From assembly GCF_000423825.1 (NCBI RefSeq), contig NZ_AUIS01000018.1:1-51905 (forward strand): 51,905 bases of DNA, read 5' to 3'. The DNA comes from Thermithiobacillus tepidarius DSM 3134 (GTDB lineage Bacteria > Pseudomonadota > Gammaproteobacteria > Acidithiobacillales > Thermithiobacillaceae). Under the pieces are notes generated by a model. That model saw only the letters and a program-made list of their open reading frames with translations, was not told the DNA's origin and did not search any database. A program made the position numbers and the translations under genes. Shown piece by piece: positions 33,021 through 51,446 of the stretch (position 1 is the first letter of the stretch; each line of letters begins with the position of its first letter).

Positions 33021-33030
33021 GGTGTCCTGT

Positions 33031-34435
<1,405 letters not shown>

Positions 34436-44600: not shown

Positions 44601-46049
44601 TCAGCCCCGGTAGGCCAGATCCAGTTCCTTGGCCGCCTTGACGTCGTCCAGGCGCCGCACCGGCAAGGTGTAGGGAGCGCCCTTGACCATGGCGGCATCG
44701 CGGCGGGCCTCGTCGAGGATGGTCCGCATGACGCGCACGAACTCGTCCAGGGCCTCCTTGGCCTCGGTCTCGGTGGGCTCGATGAGCAAGCACTCGGGCA
44801 CCAAGAGCGGGAAATAGGTGGTGGGCGCGTGAATGCCGTAGTCCAGCAGGCGCTTGGCCACGTCCAGGGCGCGCACGCCGGTTTCCTTGGCCAGCTTTTC
44901 CAGGGTGACGATGAACTCGTGGGTGGCGCGGCGCTCGGGGTAGGCCAGGTCGAAGCCGGCCTTGCCGAGCTCGGCCATCAGGTAGTTGGCGTTCAGCGTG
45001 GCGAACTCGGCCACCTGGTGCATGCCTTCGCGGCCCAGCAGGCGGGCGTAGACATAGGCGCGCAGCAGCACGCCCACGTTGCCCATGTGGGCCGACAGGC
45101 GACCGATGCTCTGCGGCCGCTCGGCCTCGGTGAGCAGGCGGTAGCCGCCGTCCTTGTCGCGGGCCACCAGCGGGATGGGCAGGAAGGGCTCCAGACGCTT
45201 GCTCACGCCCACCGGACCGGCGCCGGGACCGCCGCCGCCGTGGGGCGTGGAGAAGGTCTTGTGCAGGTTCATGTGGATGACGTCGAAGCCCATGTCGCCG
45301 GGCTTGACCTTGCCCAGGATGGCGTTGAGGTTGGCGCCGTCGTAGTAGGTCAGGCCGCCGGCTTCGTGGATGATCTTCTGGATGGCGACGATCTTGCGCT
45401 CGAAGACGCCCAGGGTGGACGGGTTGGTCAGCATGAGCCCGGCGGTTTGCGGGCCGACGGCGGCCTTCAGGGCTTCCAGGTCCACGTCGCCTTGGTCGTC
45501 GGTGGGGATCTCGCGCACGGTGTAGCCGCACATGATGGCGGTGGCCGGGTTGGTGCCGTGGGCGGCGTCGGGCACCAGGATCTCGGTGCGCGCCGTGTCG
45601 CCGCGGGCGTCATGGTAGGCGCGGATCATGGCCACGCCGGCGAACTCGCCCTGGGCGCCGGCGGCCGGCGTCAGGCTCACCGCCGCCATGCCGGTGACGT
45701 CCTTGAGATATTCCTGCAGCTCGTAGAGGGTCGCCAGCAGGCCTTGGCCGGTGCTGGCCGGCGCGTGGGGATGGCGGCTCAGGAAGCCGGGCAGCAGGGC
45801 CAGCGTGTTGCAGGCCCGCGGGTTGTACTTCATGGTGCAGGAACCCAGCGGATAGAACTGGGTGTCGATGGAGAAGTTCTGCTGTGACAGGCGCGTGTAA
45901 TGGCGCACCGCCTGCAGCTCCGAGACTTCGGGCAGGCGGGGCTTGGAGCGGCGCCGGAACTGCTCGGGGATGTCGCTGGTGTCCGCCTTCTCCCGCAGGG
46001 CCTGGGCGGTGTTCACGCGGCCGGCTTTGGCATGTTCGAAAATCAGCAT
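44601..46049 (-). CDS. gcvPB: Glycine dehydrogenase (decarboxylating) subunit 2, GcvPB
   Basis: With GcvPA it forms the PLP-dependent P-protein that decarboxylates glycine and passes the aminomethyl group to lipoylated GcvH. The 482-residue protein has the PLP lysine in [30 protein letters not shown], and the C-terminal THEFIVTL. Length is typical for the two-subunit type. gcvPA ends 9 bases upstream. That P-protein is two genes here is the normal split form, not a broken gene. Confidence 0.96.
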
Positions 46050-46058
46050 GGATTCTTC

Positions 46059-47435
46059 CTAGGCGAAACGGGACAGGTCGAAGGCCTTCAGCGACTTGGC
46101 GAAGGCTTGCACGTATTCGGCGAGGTCGGCATCGGACTTGGTTTCCGTCGCGCAGACCAAGAGGGCGTCGCCGAGCTCGGGATAGTAGGGCGTGAGGTCG
46201 AAACCGCCCAGGATGCCCTGCGCCTCCATGTCCTTGAGCACCGCATTCGCGGCGCGCGGCAGACGCACCACCACTTCGTGGAAGTAGGGCCGGGCGAAGG
46301 CGATCTCGGCGCCGGCCAGGCCATCGAGCTGCTCGGCCAGCCGCCGGGTGTTGGCATGGCTGGCGGCGGCCACCCGCGCCAGGCCCTCCGGCCCCGTCAG
46401 CGCCATGTAGATGGTGGCGGCGGTGACCATGAGGCCCTGGTTGGTGCAGATGTTGCTGGTGGCCTTGCTGCGGCGGATGTGCTGCTCGCGCGCCTGCAGG
46501 GTCAGCGCGTAGCCGCGCTTGCCGTCGAGGTCGGTGGTGGCGCCGATGATGCGGCCCGGCATCTGGCGCACGTAGGCCTGCTTGCAGGCCATGAAGCCGA
46601 AGTAGGGGCCGCCGGAGGACAGCGGGATGCCCAGGGGCTGGCCTTCGCCCACCACGATGTCGGCACCGGTCTCGCCCCATTCGCCGGGCGGCCTCAGCAG
46701 CGCCAGGCTGGTGGGATTGACCACGCCGATGGCGAGCATCTTGTGGGCGTGGGCCCAGTCGGTGAGGGCGTCCACGTCCTCCAGCACGCCGAAGAAGTTC
46801 GGCTGCGGGATGACCAGAGCAGCGAAATCTTCGCCCGCGAAGCGCTCCAGGGACTCGGGAATGGTGTGGCCGCCTTCGGTGCAGTAGGGCAGCTCCACCA
46901 GCTCGATTCGCTGGTGCTTGACGATGCTCTCCACCACCCGGCGCCAGATGGGGTGGACCGTGGCGGGCATGAGCACGCGGCGCGCGCTCTTGTGGATGCG
47001 CACCGCCATCAGCACCGCTTCCGCCAAAGCCGAGGCGCCGTCGTACATGGAGGCGTTGGATACGTCCATGCCGGTGAGGCTGGCCATCATGCTCTGGTAT
47101 TCGTAGAGGAGCTGCAGGGTGCCCTGGCTGGCCTCGGCCTGGTAGGGGGTGTAGGCGGAGTAGAACTCGCCGCGCGTGGTGAGCTCCCAGACGGCGGCGG
47201 GGATGTGGTGCTCGTAGGCGCCGGCGCCGATGAAGCAGAGGGGTTGGCGGTCCTGCTCCGCCCGCTCGCGCATCAGCCGCTGCACCTCCATTTCCGACAG
47301 CCGCTCGGGCACCCGCTCCAGCGGGCCAGCGCGCAGCTCGGCGGGGATCTCATCGAACAGGGCCTCGATGCTCGGTGCGCCGATGGCGGCGAGCATGGCC
47401 TGGATGTCTTCGTCCGTGTGGGGAATGAAAGCCAT
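46059..47435 (-). CDS. gcvPA: Glycine dehydrogenase (decarboxylating) subunit 1, GcvPA
   Basis: The 458-residue subunit 1 carries [19 protein letters not shown] at the start, [19 protein letters not shown], the [19 protein letters not shown] segment, and [20 protein letters not shown]. These match GcvPA and not the fused P-protein. It lies 1 base after the gcvH stop, so it is co-translated with gcvH. Confidence 0.96.
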
Positions 47436-47436
47436 C

Positions 47437-47829
47437 TTATCCCTCGCTGGCGACCAGCGCCTCGTAGGCGGCCGCGTCCATCAGGCCGTCGTAGTCGGCC
47501 GGGTTGTCGGCCTTGATCTCGAAGATCCAGCCGGCGCCGTGCGCATCCTGGTTGATGGTCTCGGGCGTGCCGCTCAACTCCTCGTTGGCGCCGACGATCT
47601 CGCCGGCGATGGGAGCGTAGACGTCGCTGGCGGCCTTGACCGATTCCACCACCGCGCAATCCTGCTTGGCGTTCACGTGGCGGCCGATCTCGGGCGTTTC
47701 CACGAAGACGAGATCACCCAACAGTTCCTGGGCATGATCGGTGATGCCGACGCGGAAGACGCCGTCGCCCTGGGGCTGGACCCATTCGTGGCTGTCGGTG
47801 TAGCGGCGATCGGTGGGGACGTTGCTCAT
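47437..47829 (-). CDS. gcvH: Glycine cleavage system H protein
   Basis: GcvH carries the lipoyl group that shuttles the aminomethyl intermediate between P, T and L proteins. The 130-residue protein has [37 protein letters not shown] and the lipoylation site [10 protein letters not shown] with K65. AAAGGAGATC precedes the ATG at 47829. The gap to gcvT is 702 bases and full of repeats, so gcvH may also have its own promoter. LipA from the same region makes its cofactor. Confidence 0.96.
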
Positions 47830-47889
47830 GGTTGATCTCCTTTGAAATTGGGTATTCTTTCTGCAATCCGTCAAATTCGTAATCTGTAG

Positions 47890-47916
47890 GTTGGGCTGCG
47901 CGCAGCGAAGCCCAAC
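47890..47916. repeat. Palindromic intergenic repeat (GTTGGGCT...AGCCCAAC)
   Basis: GTTGGGCT (47890-47897) pairs with AGCCCAAC (47909-47916) around GCGCGCAGCGA. This GTAGGTTGGGC-type palindrome is a well-known intergenic repeat type in gammaproteobacteria. A second small hairpin GCGGGC-TGC-GCCCGC follows at 47934-47948. Confidence 0.6.
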
Positions 47917-48104
47917 GTTGGTGCGTCCAAGGGGCGGGCTGCGCCCGCGGGTGCTTGGGTGTCGGGGGTTGCCCGACGGCAAGTCACCTTGCCATTCGCT
48001 GCGCTCAGACACACGCTCCCTCGTTTCCCGCGGCCGCTGCGGTGCTCGGCGGGACAACGGGGGTGGAAAAACCAAAACCCTGAATCCCGCTGTTGCCATT
48101 GGCG

Positions 48105-48172
48105 GTAGGAGCGGGCTGGCCCGCGATGGTTTGCCTAGCGGCATAGTGGATCGCGGGCCAGCCCGCTCCTAC
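48105..48172. repeat. REP-like inverted repeat pair 1
   Basis: Two 23-base arms beginning GTAGGAGCGGGCTGGCCCGC (48105-48127) and ending CCAGCCCGCTCCTAC (48150-48172) are exact reverse complements, separated by 22 bases. This is the arrangement of bacterial REP/BIME elements, close to the Pseudomonas type. It lies between gcvH and gcvT. Confidence 0.8.
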
Positions 48173-48310
48173 AAGCCAGGATGCCGGCTCGCCAGGCCTG
48201 GCACGGCAGCGCAGCCACTCGGATATCGCTCCCGCCGGGCGTGGGCCGGGTGAGGGGCGCCGTGGTGTCGTCCCCGGCAGCGCTCCCGGGCCACGTGGCC
48301 GCCCATGGCT

Positions 48311-48441
48311 GTAGGAGCGAGCGCGCTCGCGATGAAGGTGGCGGCCGGCCGCCTTCGGATCGCGGGCCAGCCCGCTCCTACCCTCCCCTCCCGTGAGCCA
48401 GCGCGGTCCAGCCCGCTGCCGGGGCGCCAGCCCGCTCCTTG
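48311..48441. repeat. REP-like inverted repeat pair 2 plus partial copies
   Basis: A diverged arm (48311-48333, GTAGGAGCGAGCGCGCTCGC) faces a perfect arm (48359-48381, ending GCTCCTAC). Two shortened copies of the second arm follow at about 48401-48420 and 48424-48440 (GCCAGCCCGCTCC). Together with pair 1 this makes a small BIME-like array. The remainder of the 702-base gcvH-gcvT gap (47830-48531) shows no gene. Confidence 0.75.
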
Positions 48442-48531
48442 TCAACAGAATCCGTTGGGTTTTGCACCGCTCATCCAACCCGCGCCAGAAACTTGCATGT
48501 TCCTGTACCCGCCCGGTATCTCCACAGGCGG

Positions 48532-49635
48532 TCAAAAATTCCTTTGCCCCTGTTTGACGAAAGGCGGCCTGACCACCTGGGCCGGCACCGCCTTGCCGCG
48601 GATTTCCACCGCCAGCGCGTCGCCCGGCGCAAAGGCTCCCTGCACGCGGGCGAAGGCGATGCCCAGGCCCAGGGTCGGCGAGAAGGAGCCGCTGGTGATC
48701 TCGCCGATCTGCTTTCCTTCGGCATCGAGCACCGCTTGGTGGGCGCGCGGGATGCCGCCGGCGGGGATGACCAGGCCCACCAGGCTGCGCGGCACGCCGG
48801 CGCGCTGCTGGGTTTCCAGGGCGGCGCGACCGATGAAGTCGCGGCTGTCCTTGAGCGCCACGGTCCAAGCCAGGTTGGACTCCAGCGGAGTGGTGCCCTC
48901 GTCCATGTCCTGGCCGTAGAGGTTCATGCCGGCTTCCAGGCGCAGGGTATCGCGCGCGCCAAGGCCGGCGGGGCGGACGCCGGCGTCCAGCAGGCGCCGC
49001 GCCAGCCCCGGCGCCGCCGTATTGGGCAGCATGATCTCGAAGCCGTCCTCGCCGGTGTAGCCGGTGCGGGCGACGAAGTACTCGGCGCCGTCGATCTTGA
49101 AAAAGCCGCCGGTAAAAGGCTTGAGCGCGTCCACGGCGGGCTCGCCGAGCACGACCGTGGTCTTGGCGCGGGCCTGGGGGCCTTGGACGGCGAGCATGGC
49201 CAAGTCGTCGCGCCGGCGCATGTCGACCGACGGTGCGTAATGGGCGCGCTGGCTCTCGATCCAGGCGAGGTCCTTCTCGGTGGTGGCGGCGTTGACCACC
49301 ATGCGGTAGCAGTCGGGGCGGATGAAATAGACGATGAGATCGTCCACCACGCCGCCGGTCTCGTTCAGCATGCAGGAATAGAGCGCCTTGCCGGGGGTCT
49401 GCTGGATCCTGGCCACGTCGTTGGCCAGCAGCGTTTGCAGGAAGCGTCCGGCCTCGGCGCCGTGGAAGTCCACCACGGTCATGTGGGAAACGTCGAAGAG
49501 TCCGGCATCGCGGCGCACCTGATGGTGCTCCTCCAGTTGCGAGCCGTAGTGCAGCGGCATGTCCCAGCCGCCGAAGTCCACCATTTTGGCGCCATGGGCG
49601 GCATGCCAGTCGTACAGGGGGGTGCGTAGGCCCAT
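48532..49635 (-). CDS. gcvT: Aminomethyltransferase (glycine cleavage T protein)
   Basis: GcvT takes the aminomethyl group from GcvH, releasing ammonia and methylenetetrahydrofolate. The 367-residue protein shows TPLYDWHAAHGAKMVDFGGWDMPLHYGSQLEEHHQVRRDAGLFDVSHM at the N terminus, FVARTGYTGEDGFEIMLP, and a C-terminal FSPTLGLGIAFAR. All are T-protein signatures; length is normal. It follows lipA by 14 bases. Its product feeds the folate pool used by MetF and MetH. Confidence 0.97.
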   Translation of the reverse strand: MGLRTPLYDWHAAHGAKMVDFGGWDMPLHYGSQLEEHHQVRRDAGLFDVSHMTVVDFHGAEAGRFLQTLLANDVARIQQTPGKALYSCMLNETGGVVDDLIVYFIRPDCYRMVVNAATTEKDLAWIESQRAHYAPSVDMRRRDDLAMLAVQGPQARAKTTVVLGEPAVDALKPFTGGFFKIDGAEYFVARTGYTGEDGFEIMLPNTAAPGLARRLLDAGVRPAGLGARDTLRLEAGMNLYGQDMDEGTTPLESNLAWTVALKDSRDFIGRAALETQQRAGVPRSLVGLVIPAGGIPRAHQAVLDAEGKQIGEITSGSFSPTLGLGIAFARVQGAFAPGDALAVEIRGKAVPAQVVRPPFVKQGQRNF

Positions 49636-49649
49636 CTTTCGTCCTTTTG

Positions 49650-50546
49650 TCAGTCTTCTGCGTGATAGCTGGAGCGCACCAGCGGCCCGGCCTTGACCCA
49701 GGTGAAGCCCATCTCCCGGGCGGCCGTTTCCAGCTCGGTGAATCGCGCCGGTTCGATATAGGCCCGCACCGGCAGATGCTGCATGGACGGGCGCAGATAC
49801 TGGCCCAGGGCCAGCCGCCGCACGCCTGCGGCGCGCAGGTCGCGCAGCACCTCCAGCACTTCCCCGGTCGTCTCGCCCAGGCCCAGCATGAGGGCGGATT
49901 TGGCCTCGACCCCCGGCAGGGCGGCGGCCGCCGCCAGCAGGCGCAGGGAGCGCGCATAGTCGGCGCCGGGTCGTACCGCTTTGTAGAGCCGCGGCACGGT
50001 TTCCATGTTATGGCCCCAGACGAAGGGCGAGTGCCCGGCCAGCGCGCGCAGGGCGGCTTCCTGGCAGTTGCGGAAGTCGGGAGTCAGGAGCTCGATGCCG
50101 ATGGCGGGCTGCCGCGCGCGCAGCAGGCGCATGGTTGCGGCGAAGATGCCGGCGCCGCCGTCGGGCTGGTCGTCGCGGTTGACGGAGGTGATCACCACGT
50201 ATTTGAGGCCCATGCGGGCCGCGGCCTCGGCCACGCGCCGGGGTTCGTCCGCGTCCGGCGCGCTGCCGGGCTTGCCGGTCTTGACCGCGCAGAAGCCGCA
50301 GGCGCGGGTGCAGATGTCGCCCAGGATCATGAAGGTGGCCGTGCCCCGGCTCCAGCATTCGCCGCGGTTGGGGCACTTGGCCTCCTCGCAGACGGTATGC
50401 AGGGCATGCTGGTGGACGGCGTGCTGGGTCAGGCCGAAATGGGGCGCGTCGCCGAGCGGCTGGCGGATCCAGGCGGGCATGGGGCCGCAGTTGGGCGTGG
50501 CGGCGCGCTGGGCGTGCAGGGGGATGACAGGCTTGCCGGTCTGCAT
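49650..50546 (-). CDS. lipA: Lipoyl synthase LipA
   Basis: LipA inserts two sulfur atoms into octanoyl-GcvH and E2 proteins. The 298-residue radical-SAM enzyme has the auxiliary-cluster cysteines C53, C58, C64 (CEEAKCPNRGEC) and the radical-SAM cluster C79, C83, C86 (CTRACGFC), plus the C-terminal RSSYHAED serine motif. GGAGAA precedes the ATG at 50546. It is the first gene after the glycine riboswitch, so lipoate for GcvH is likely made in step with the system. No lipB is in the window. Confidence 0.96.
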   Translation of the reverse strand: MQTGKPVIPLHAQRAATPNCGPMPAWIRQPLGDAPHFGLTQHAVHQHALHTVCEEAKCPNRGECWSRGTATFMILGDICTRACGFCAVKTGKPGSAPDADEPRRVAEAAARMGLKYVVITSVNRDDQPDGGAGIFAATMRLLRARQPAIGIELLTPDFRNCQEAALRALAGHSPFVWGHNMETVPRLYKAVRPGADYARSLRLLAAAAALPGVEAKSALMLGLGETTGEVLEVLRDLRAAGVRRLALGQYLRPSMQHLPVRAYIEPARFTELETAAREMGFTWVKAGPLVRSSYHAED

Positions 50547-50602
50547 GGTCGGTTCTCCGCTCGGCTTCGATAAAGGGGCACCCGGCCGCTGGCCGCGTGC
50601 CT

Positions 50603-50775
50603 CCCCTCTGTCCGGTGACCTGAGAGCTTGAGCCCCGTCGGTGCTCCGCCTGGGCGGAGTCTCTCCAGAGTTCCTGAGCCGTAAGCGACGGCAGTCCCGC
50701 AGTCCTTCTGCCTGAGATTTTTCGGGAGGGTTGATCCTTCGGCGTTGCGCGCTGCGCAATCTCTCCCGCGGGACG
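50603..50775 (-). promoter_or_regulatory. Tandem glycine riboswitch (two aptamers)
   Basis: Two consecutive aptamers fit the glycine riboswitch. Aptamer 1 lies at about 50694-50774: P1 pairs GTCCCGC with GCGGGAC, and its core contains GGGAGAGA, GCCGAAGGATCAA and TCTCAGGCAGAAGGAC. Aptamer 2 lies at about 50605-50672: P1 pairs CTCTGG with CAGAGG, and its core contains GGAGAGAC, CACCGACGGGG and CTCTCAGGTCACCGGACAG. The direction and a distance of about 57 bases to the lipA start fit control of lipA and the gcv genes. Known glycine riboswitches turn such operons on when glycine is abundant. Confidence 0.92.
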
Positions 50776-50850
50776 TCTCGGAGGCCTTAATGTAAACCAA
50801 GGCGGGAGAGAAGGCTAGTGCGGGAGTCGCGTCAGCCCGGGAGGAAGCGC

Positions 50851-50888: not shown

Positions 50889-51446
50889 TTACTGCACGAC
50901 GCCGCAGGCAATGCGGGCGCCGCCGCCGCCCAGCGGGTGGGGATGGTCGGCGAAGTTGTCGCCGCCGGCGTGCACCATGAGCGAGCGGTTGCGGATGTCG
51001 GCCAGCTTCAGGCGCGGCGCCACCACGCTCATGTCCACGCTGCCGTCGGCTTGGGCGGTGAGGGGCGGCAGATCGCCCAGGTGGCCTTTGCCATAGGGGC
51101 CTTCATGACGGCCGGTCTTCTCCGGGTCGTAGTGGCCGCCCGCGGCGGCTGCCGGCACCATCTTGCCATCCTGCTCCTTGGGCGCGCAGCTGGGGTTCTC
51201 GTGCACGTGGAAGCCGTGCACCCCGGCCGGCAGGCCGCGCAATTGGGCGGTCAGCACCAGGCCGTTCGGGCCGTCGGCGGCGCGAACCGTGCCGAGCTCC
51301 CGGCCGACGCCGGAAGGCGTCGCCTCATGCATGACGACGGTCACGCCCGGTCCGCTGGCCGCGGCGCTGGGCTGGCCGGTATGGCTGCAGCCCGCTGCCG
51401 CCAGCGAGAAACAGAGAATCGCCGATGCGGTCGCGAGTGGCTTCAT
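50889..51446 (-). CDS. sodC: Periplasmic Cu/Zn superoxide dismutase (lipoprotein-like)
   Basis: SodC dismutates superoxide in the periplasm. The 185-residue precursor has a hydrophobic signal and a lipobox-like AAAGC (C20). The metal sites are intact: HGFHVHENPSC (Cu), AGGHYDPEKTGRHEGPYGKGHLGDLP (Zn and bridging His) and DHPHPLGGGGARIACGVV (Cu ligand and structural disulfide). The neighbourhood of msrPQ suggests defence of the envelope against oxidants. Confidence 0.95.
   Translation of the reverse strand: MKPLATASAILCFSLAAAGCSHTGQPSAAASGPGVTVVMHEATPSGVGRELGTVRAADGPNGLVLTAQLRGLPAGVHGFHVHENPSCAPKEQDGKMVPAAAAGGHYDPEKTGRHEGPYGKGHLGDLPPLTAQADGSVDMSVVAPRLKLADIRNRSLMVHAGGDNFADHPHPLGGGGARIACGVVQ

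Follow-up and report, generated by a model that had tools for sequence, protein, structure and literature searches.

Described glycine riboswitch operons and lipoyl synthases

Two described arrangements come closest to the locus analyzed here. In Bacillus subtilis, the gcvT operon is preceded by a riboswitch with two glycine aptamers and a terminator adjoining the end of aptamer 2, and this tandem riboswitch is an ON switch that acts via the terminator stem (PMC5666159). In Pseudomonadota, gcvT-gcvH-gcvPA-gcvPB genes are found behind tandem glycine riboswitches (PMC12452182). On the side of cofactor supply, shdr-lbpA clusters with LipS1/S2 equip a pathway with a lipoyl synthase of its own, next to a lipoyl carrier that is likewise specific to it (PMC10332631). 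Lipoyl synthase sacrifices its own auxiliary Fe-S cluster in each turnover; in the human enzyme, LIAS, residues Asn237 and Glu239 are in contact with the nucleoside derived from SAM (PMC12246082).

We analyzed a window of 51,905 nucleotides (positions 1 to 51,905 of contig NZ_AUIS01000018.1) from Thermithiobacillus tepidarius DSM 3134. Its glycine riboswitch locus shares two aptamers, a gcv operon and a terminator-like hairpin adjoining the end of aptamer 2 with B. subtilis, where, however, gcvT comes first and no lipoyl synthase stands at the head; the T-tract is also weak in T. tepidarius. The operons of PMC12452182 have the same aptamer arrangement and the same gcv genes, but lipA is not named among the regulated genes. 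The shdr-lbpA clusters resemble the locus in their pairing of synthase and carrier, but sulfur insertion is by LipS1/S2 rather than LipA and the carrier is LbpA. Finally, the lipoyl synthase encoded here, which we name LipA2, matches LipA (TIGR00510; 4u0o, 5exi, human LIAS 8tsk) over its full length and shares both cluster motifs and the RSSY motif, but it belongs to a separate clade and has WGHN instead of FNHN at the SAM-binding loop.

Our literature search, which covered sources outside subscription journals, found no paper joining a glycine riboswitch with lipoyl or lipoate synthase. The accessible parts of riboswitch papers that mention lipA dealt with riboswitch engineering and biosensors only, those of riboswitch papers that mention lipoate did not name lipA under a glycine riboswitch, and the term lipA is absent from the main text of a 2025 survey of contiguous riboswitches. 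While control of this kind is already known, a LipA2 clade at the head of a riboswitched gcv operon appears to be undescribed in the searchable literature.

A tandem glycine riboswitch precedes lipA2 and gcvT

The features of the locus, in the direction of transcription, are as follows.

50690..50778, minus strand: glycine riboswitch aptamer 1 (RF00504, 62.7 bits, E 1e-10, full length)
50598..50678, minus strand: glycine riboswitch aptamer 2 (RF00504, 47.4 bits, E 1.1e-6, full length)
50670-50666 with 50610-50606, minus strand: P1 of aptamer 2, CTCTG with CAGAG (strands read from the sequence)
50572..50607, minus strand: terminator-like hairpin of the expression platform (fold of -30.3 kcal/mol; homologous hairpins in relatives)
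50555..50558, minus strand: GGAG, likely ribosome-binding site of lipA2, not included in the hairpin (read from the sequence)
49650..50546, minus strand: lipA2, second lipoyl synthase, 298 aa (TIGR00510, 363.6 bits)
48532..49635, minus strand: gcvT, 14 bp after lipA2 (TIGR00528, 411 bits)
47839..48531, minus strand: gap separating gcvT from gcvH (about 690 bp), occupied by repeats of a REP-like palindrome
47437..47838, minus strand: gcvH, encoding the lipoyl carrier protein, the proposed substrate of LipA2 (TIGR00527, 153.2 bits)
46059..47435, minus strand: gcvPA (NF001696, 628.4 bits)
44601..46049, minus strand: gcvPB (NF003346, 727.7 bits)

The two aptamers are separated by 11 nt and are the only glycine aptamers that a genome-wide RF00504 search retrieved (2,958,498 bases). 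The original prediction had placed a tandem glycine riboswitch with intact cores directly upstream of lipA. The covariance model supports the riboswitch, as both aptamers, on the minus strand, score above the gathering threshold of 32 bits; the description of the cores holds for aptamer 1 but not for aptamer 2, in which three positions of P1 do not pair, P3b is shortened and GACGG stands where the majority of relatives have GAAGG. The start of lipA2 lies 51 nt 3' of aptamer 2, which puts the tandem aptamers in the glycine-metabolism context of lipA2-gcvT. The linker between the aptamers (50679-50695, minus strand) contains a possible small extra hairpin, GCCGT-CGCTT-ACGGC, which is unseen in the relatives listed.

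Downstream, the profile scores of gcvT, gcvH, gcvPA and gcvPB all exceed the curated cut-offs and, together with the palindrome copies, agree with the predicted order of lipA, gcvT, a repeat-rich gap and gcvH-gcvPA-gcvPB. The palindrome, GTAGGAGCGGGCTGGCCCGCGA, has 180 genomic sites within two mismatches, against 0 for its reversed control; within the gap, it occurs at 48095-48440, often as inverted pairs about 45 bp apart. The corresponding gap in the sister genus (G001) measures 28 bp and has no repeat filling. Because of the repeat-filled gap, a single transcript from lipA to gcvPB is doubtful for gcvH-gcvPB in T. tepidarius.

LipA2 is a second lipoyl synthase beside a housekeeping LipA

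The LipA2 score exceeds the TIGR00510 equivalog cut-off of 310.25 bits. Both the CX4CX5C auxiliary-cluster motif and the CX3CX2C radical-SAM motif are present in all 40 LipA2 proteins compared, as is the RSS of the C-terminal RSSY, which is complete in 13/13 rows of a smaller alignment. The predicted reaction of LipA2 is sulfur insertion into an octanoylated carrier protein. Differences from canonical LipA that are fixed in LipA2 include the WGHN motif, whose Asn matches Asn237 of human LIAS; the Glu two residues further along matches Glu239, both as read from the two sequences.

The same genome carries lipB next to a canonical lipA on a different contig, and no glycine riboswitch accompanies this pair. 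The two LipA proteins of T. tepidarius are 57% identical, and in a tree of 97 LipA sequences, LipA2 forms one clade of 40 members (support 100/100), outside the housekeeping group, while the canonical copies from these genomes group in a clade of their own (100/98). A search of plasmids for close LipA2 relatives retrieved none at 60% identity or more. The possibility that the riboswitched lipA is the cell's sole lipoyl synthase was rejected, given the lipB-lipA pair elsewhere. Glycine control of lipoate synthesis, as originally proposed, stands in part: lipA, followed by gcvT, is the first gene behind the riboswitch, so that both a lipoyl synthase and GcvH are probably raised by glycine. This concerns only the second paralogue; as the housekeeping pair has no such switch, general lipoate synthesis is not under glycine control in T. 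tepidarius.

The genome also encodes a LipS2-like protein (G000:C5:116533-117483, minus strand), which scores 200.9 bits and falls below the cut-off of 270. It may represent a third lipoyl synthase system that serves LbpA in sulfur oxidation; T. tepidarius DSM 3134T is an obligately autotrophic sulfur oxidizer (PMC5037610).

The arrangement recurs across the class

We sampled 369 genomes evenly from the class and found LipA2 in 31. The next gene after lipA2 is gcvT in all 30 class loci examined, and a glycine riboswitch lies ahead of lipA2 in 26 of the 31 genomes; in a 27th, the contig begins inside aptamer 2. Any glycine riboswitch is present in 150 of the 369 genomes, and lipA2 is the first gene in about one sixth of those. 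LipA2 and glycine riboswitches are associated with an odds ratio of 9 (p 4e-7, relatedness ignored, 369 genomes). The other genus of the same family shares the riboswitch-lipA2-gcv arrangement, and in the second family of the order, none of 29 genomes has a glycine riboswitch.

Eleven gamma- and betaproteobacterial MAG loci (L008-L018) show lipA2-gcvT-gcvH-gcvPA-gcvPB as far as their contigs extend. In all eleven, gcvT directly follows lipA2, and glycine aptamers lie upstream in all ten with upstream sequence, the contig of L018 starting at lipA2. The place of lipA as first gene is thus conserved in relatives, both in these loci and in class genomes of many families. A chance arrangement is ruled out by this recurrence in distantly related genomes.

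No glycine riboswitch was found ahead of lipA2 in four of the 31 genomes, three from one genus plus G246. These absences and the departures of aptamer 2 from the consensus would be in line with aptamers that have decayed, or that form an OFF switch, and with expression of lipA2-gcvT independent of glycine. We regard this as very improbable, since both aptamers match at full length and well above threshold, their position is conserved across many families of the class, the terminator contains compensatory pairs and ON switching is the expected mode of glycine riboswitches that precede gcv genes (PMC6944388). In three loci of one genus (L113, L114 and L115), lipA2-gcvT is kept and no aptamer motif is left within 420 bp upstream.

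LipA2 is the only LipA in some genomes

Canonical lipA accompanies LipA2 in 23 of the 31 genomes and is absent in eight. Five of these eight (G127, G246, G344, G363 and G312) have lipB without an adjoining lipA, so that LipA2 is probably a functional enzyme of general use. Their completeness is at least 99%, except for G312 (72%); all five contain 2-oxoacid dehydrogenase E2 genes, and none has LipS2 above the cut-off. Judging from gene content, LipA2 alone probably supports all lipoylation in these five genomes, and in four of them (G127, G344, G363 and G312) this sole LipA2 lies behind a riboswitch. In a genome with no other LipA, LipA2 cannot be reserved for GcvH, which speaks against a dedicated enzyme there.

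These genomes raise the possibility that LipA2 is a general backup synthase for all lipoyl domains that merely happens to be located in the gcv operon, with no special link to GcvH. The eight genomes lacking another LipA, and the five with intact lipB and E2 genes but no LipS2 above the cut-off, favor such a role; the invariant adjacency to gcvT (30/30), the retention of a separate clade in the 23 of 31 genomes that also have canonical LipA, and fixed substitutions, among them WGHN in place of FNHN, suggest a distinct one where both copies exist. On balance, we find a general role possible but doubtful, and favor a lipoyl synthase dedicated to the operon where a housekeeping LipA is present. 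A broader and equally tentative scenario is that LipA2 arose as a GcvH-specialized subfamily under the glycine riboswitch and later replaced housekeeping LipA in some lineages, which would have put LipA-type lipoyl synthesis behind a glycine switch.

A probable ON-switch expression platform

The 5' arm of the hairpin between aptamer 2 and lipA2 starts inside the 3' strand of aptamer-2 P1, so that the two structures overlap. A fold of 50617-50540 gave a z of -2.73, and folding the entire aptamer-2 leader as a single sequence was not informative (z -0.84). Among 34 leaders, 25 have an intrinsic terminator formed from the 3' strand of aptamer-2 P1, defined as a stem from GAGGGG in that strand with at least 5 T among the 8 positions after it, and 20 aligned stems show compensatory pairs at stem positions 8-12. 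These P1-overlapping terminators in leaders of relatives resemble the ON switch of B. subtilis.

The T. tepidarius hairpin itself combines a strong stem with a weak U-tract, its tail TTTATCGA being short for an intrinsic terminator. A strict promoter and terminator scan of this leader found no match, and in the sister genome (G001) no T-tract follows the hairpin. Given these three observations, the switch in this family could act on translation or leak, and in the T. tepidarius leader termination may be inefficient, or control of translation may have taken its place. In its full form, the translational alternative holds that the switch in the Thermithiobacillus family hides or frees the GGAG before lipA2, the hairpin being a relic of a terminator. 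Besides the TTTAT tail and the sister genome, it draws on the complementarity between CTCCGC in P2 of aptamer 2 and GCGGAG, which contains the ribosome-binding site; this complementarity is missing in the sister, whose P2 reads CCCCGC, and predicted folds hide GGAG inconsistently. We keep translational control as a less likely alternative, with transcription termination as the preferred mode.

Proposed mechanism

Taken together, it is likely that an ON-type tandem glycine riboswitch controls an operon headed by a dedicated lipoyl synthase, LipA2. The sequence shows the riboswitch, the gene order, the second lipA, its clade and the conserved terminator, and we infer the response to glycine, the direction of the switch, the transcript and GcvH as the main client. 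At low glycine, the RNA past aptamer 2 would fold into the terminator-like hairpin, using part of the 3' strand of P1, and transcription would stop ahead of lipA2. With glycine bound, aptamer 2 would hold P1, the hairpin would lose its base, and lipA2 and gcvT would be transcribed, as would gcvH-gcvPA-gcvPB, at least in relatives. LipB would then octanoylate newly made GcvH, and LipA2 would insert the two sulfurs. Because lipoyl synthase destroys its auxiliary cluster in each turnover, a burst of apo-GcvH would have to be met by enzyme in proportion, and shared control could supply it while housekeeping lipA stays unchanged.

Such a circuit would tie the provision of a cofactor bound to protein to a switch that senses a metabolite, in that the glycine signal would build both the cleavage system and the enzyme that activates its carrier. 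Genomes with two LipA proteins and relatives with LipA2 only allow a direct test of single-client lipoyl synthases, and can also test whether LipA, because it consumes itself in its reaction, has to be made in matched dosage.

Neighboring features

Upstream of the riboswitch and in the same orientation lies a gene that, by reading, resembles Cu-Zn superoxide dismutase (50889-51446, minus strand). Its end is 110 bp away from the riboswitch, and read-through from it into the riboswitch leader is possible. Elsewhere in the window, an SAH riboswitch (RF01057, 63.1 bits; 33027-33107, plus strand) fronts an ahcY-like gene ending at 34435, followed by a metF-like gene; this arrangement is ordinary, and the gene names come from reading the translations.
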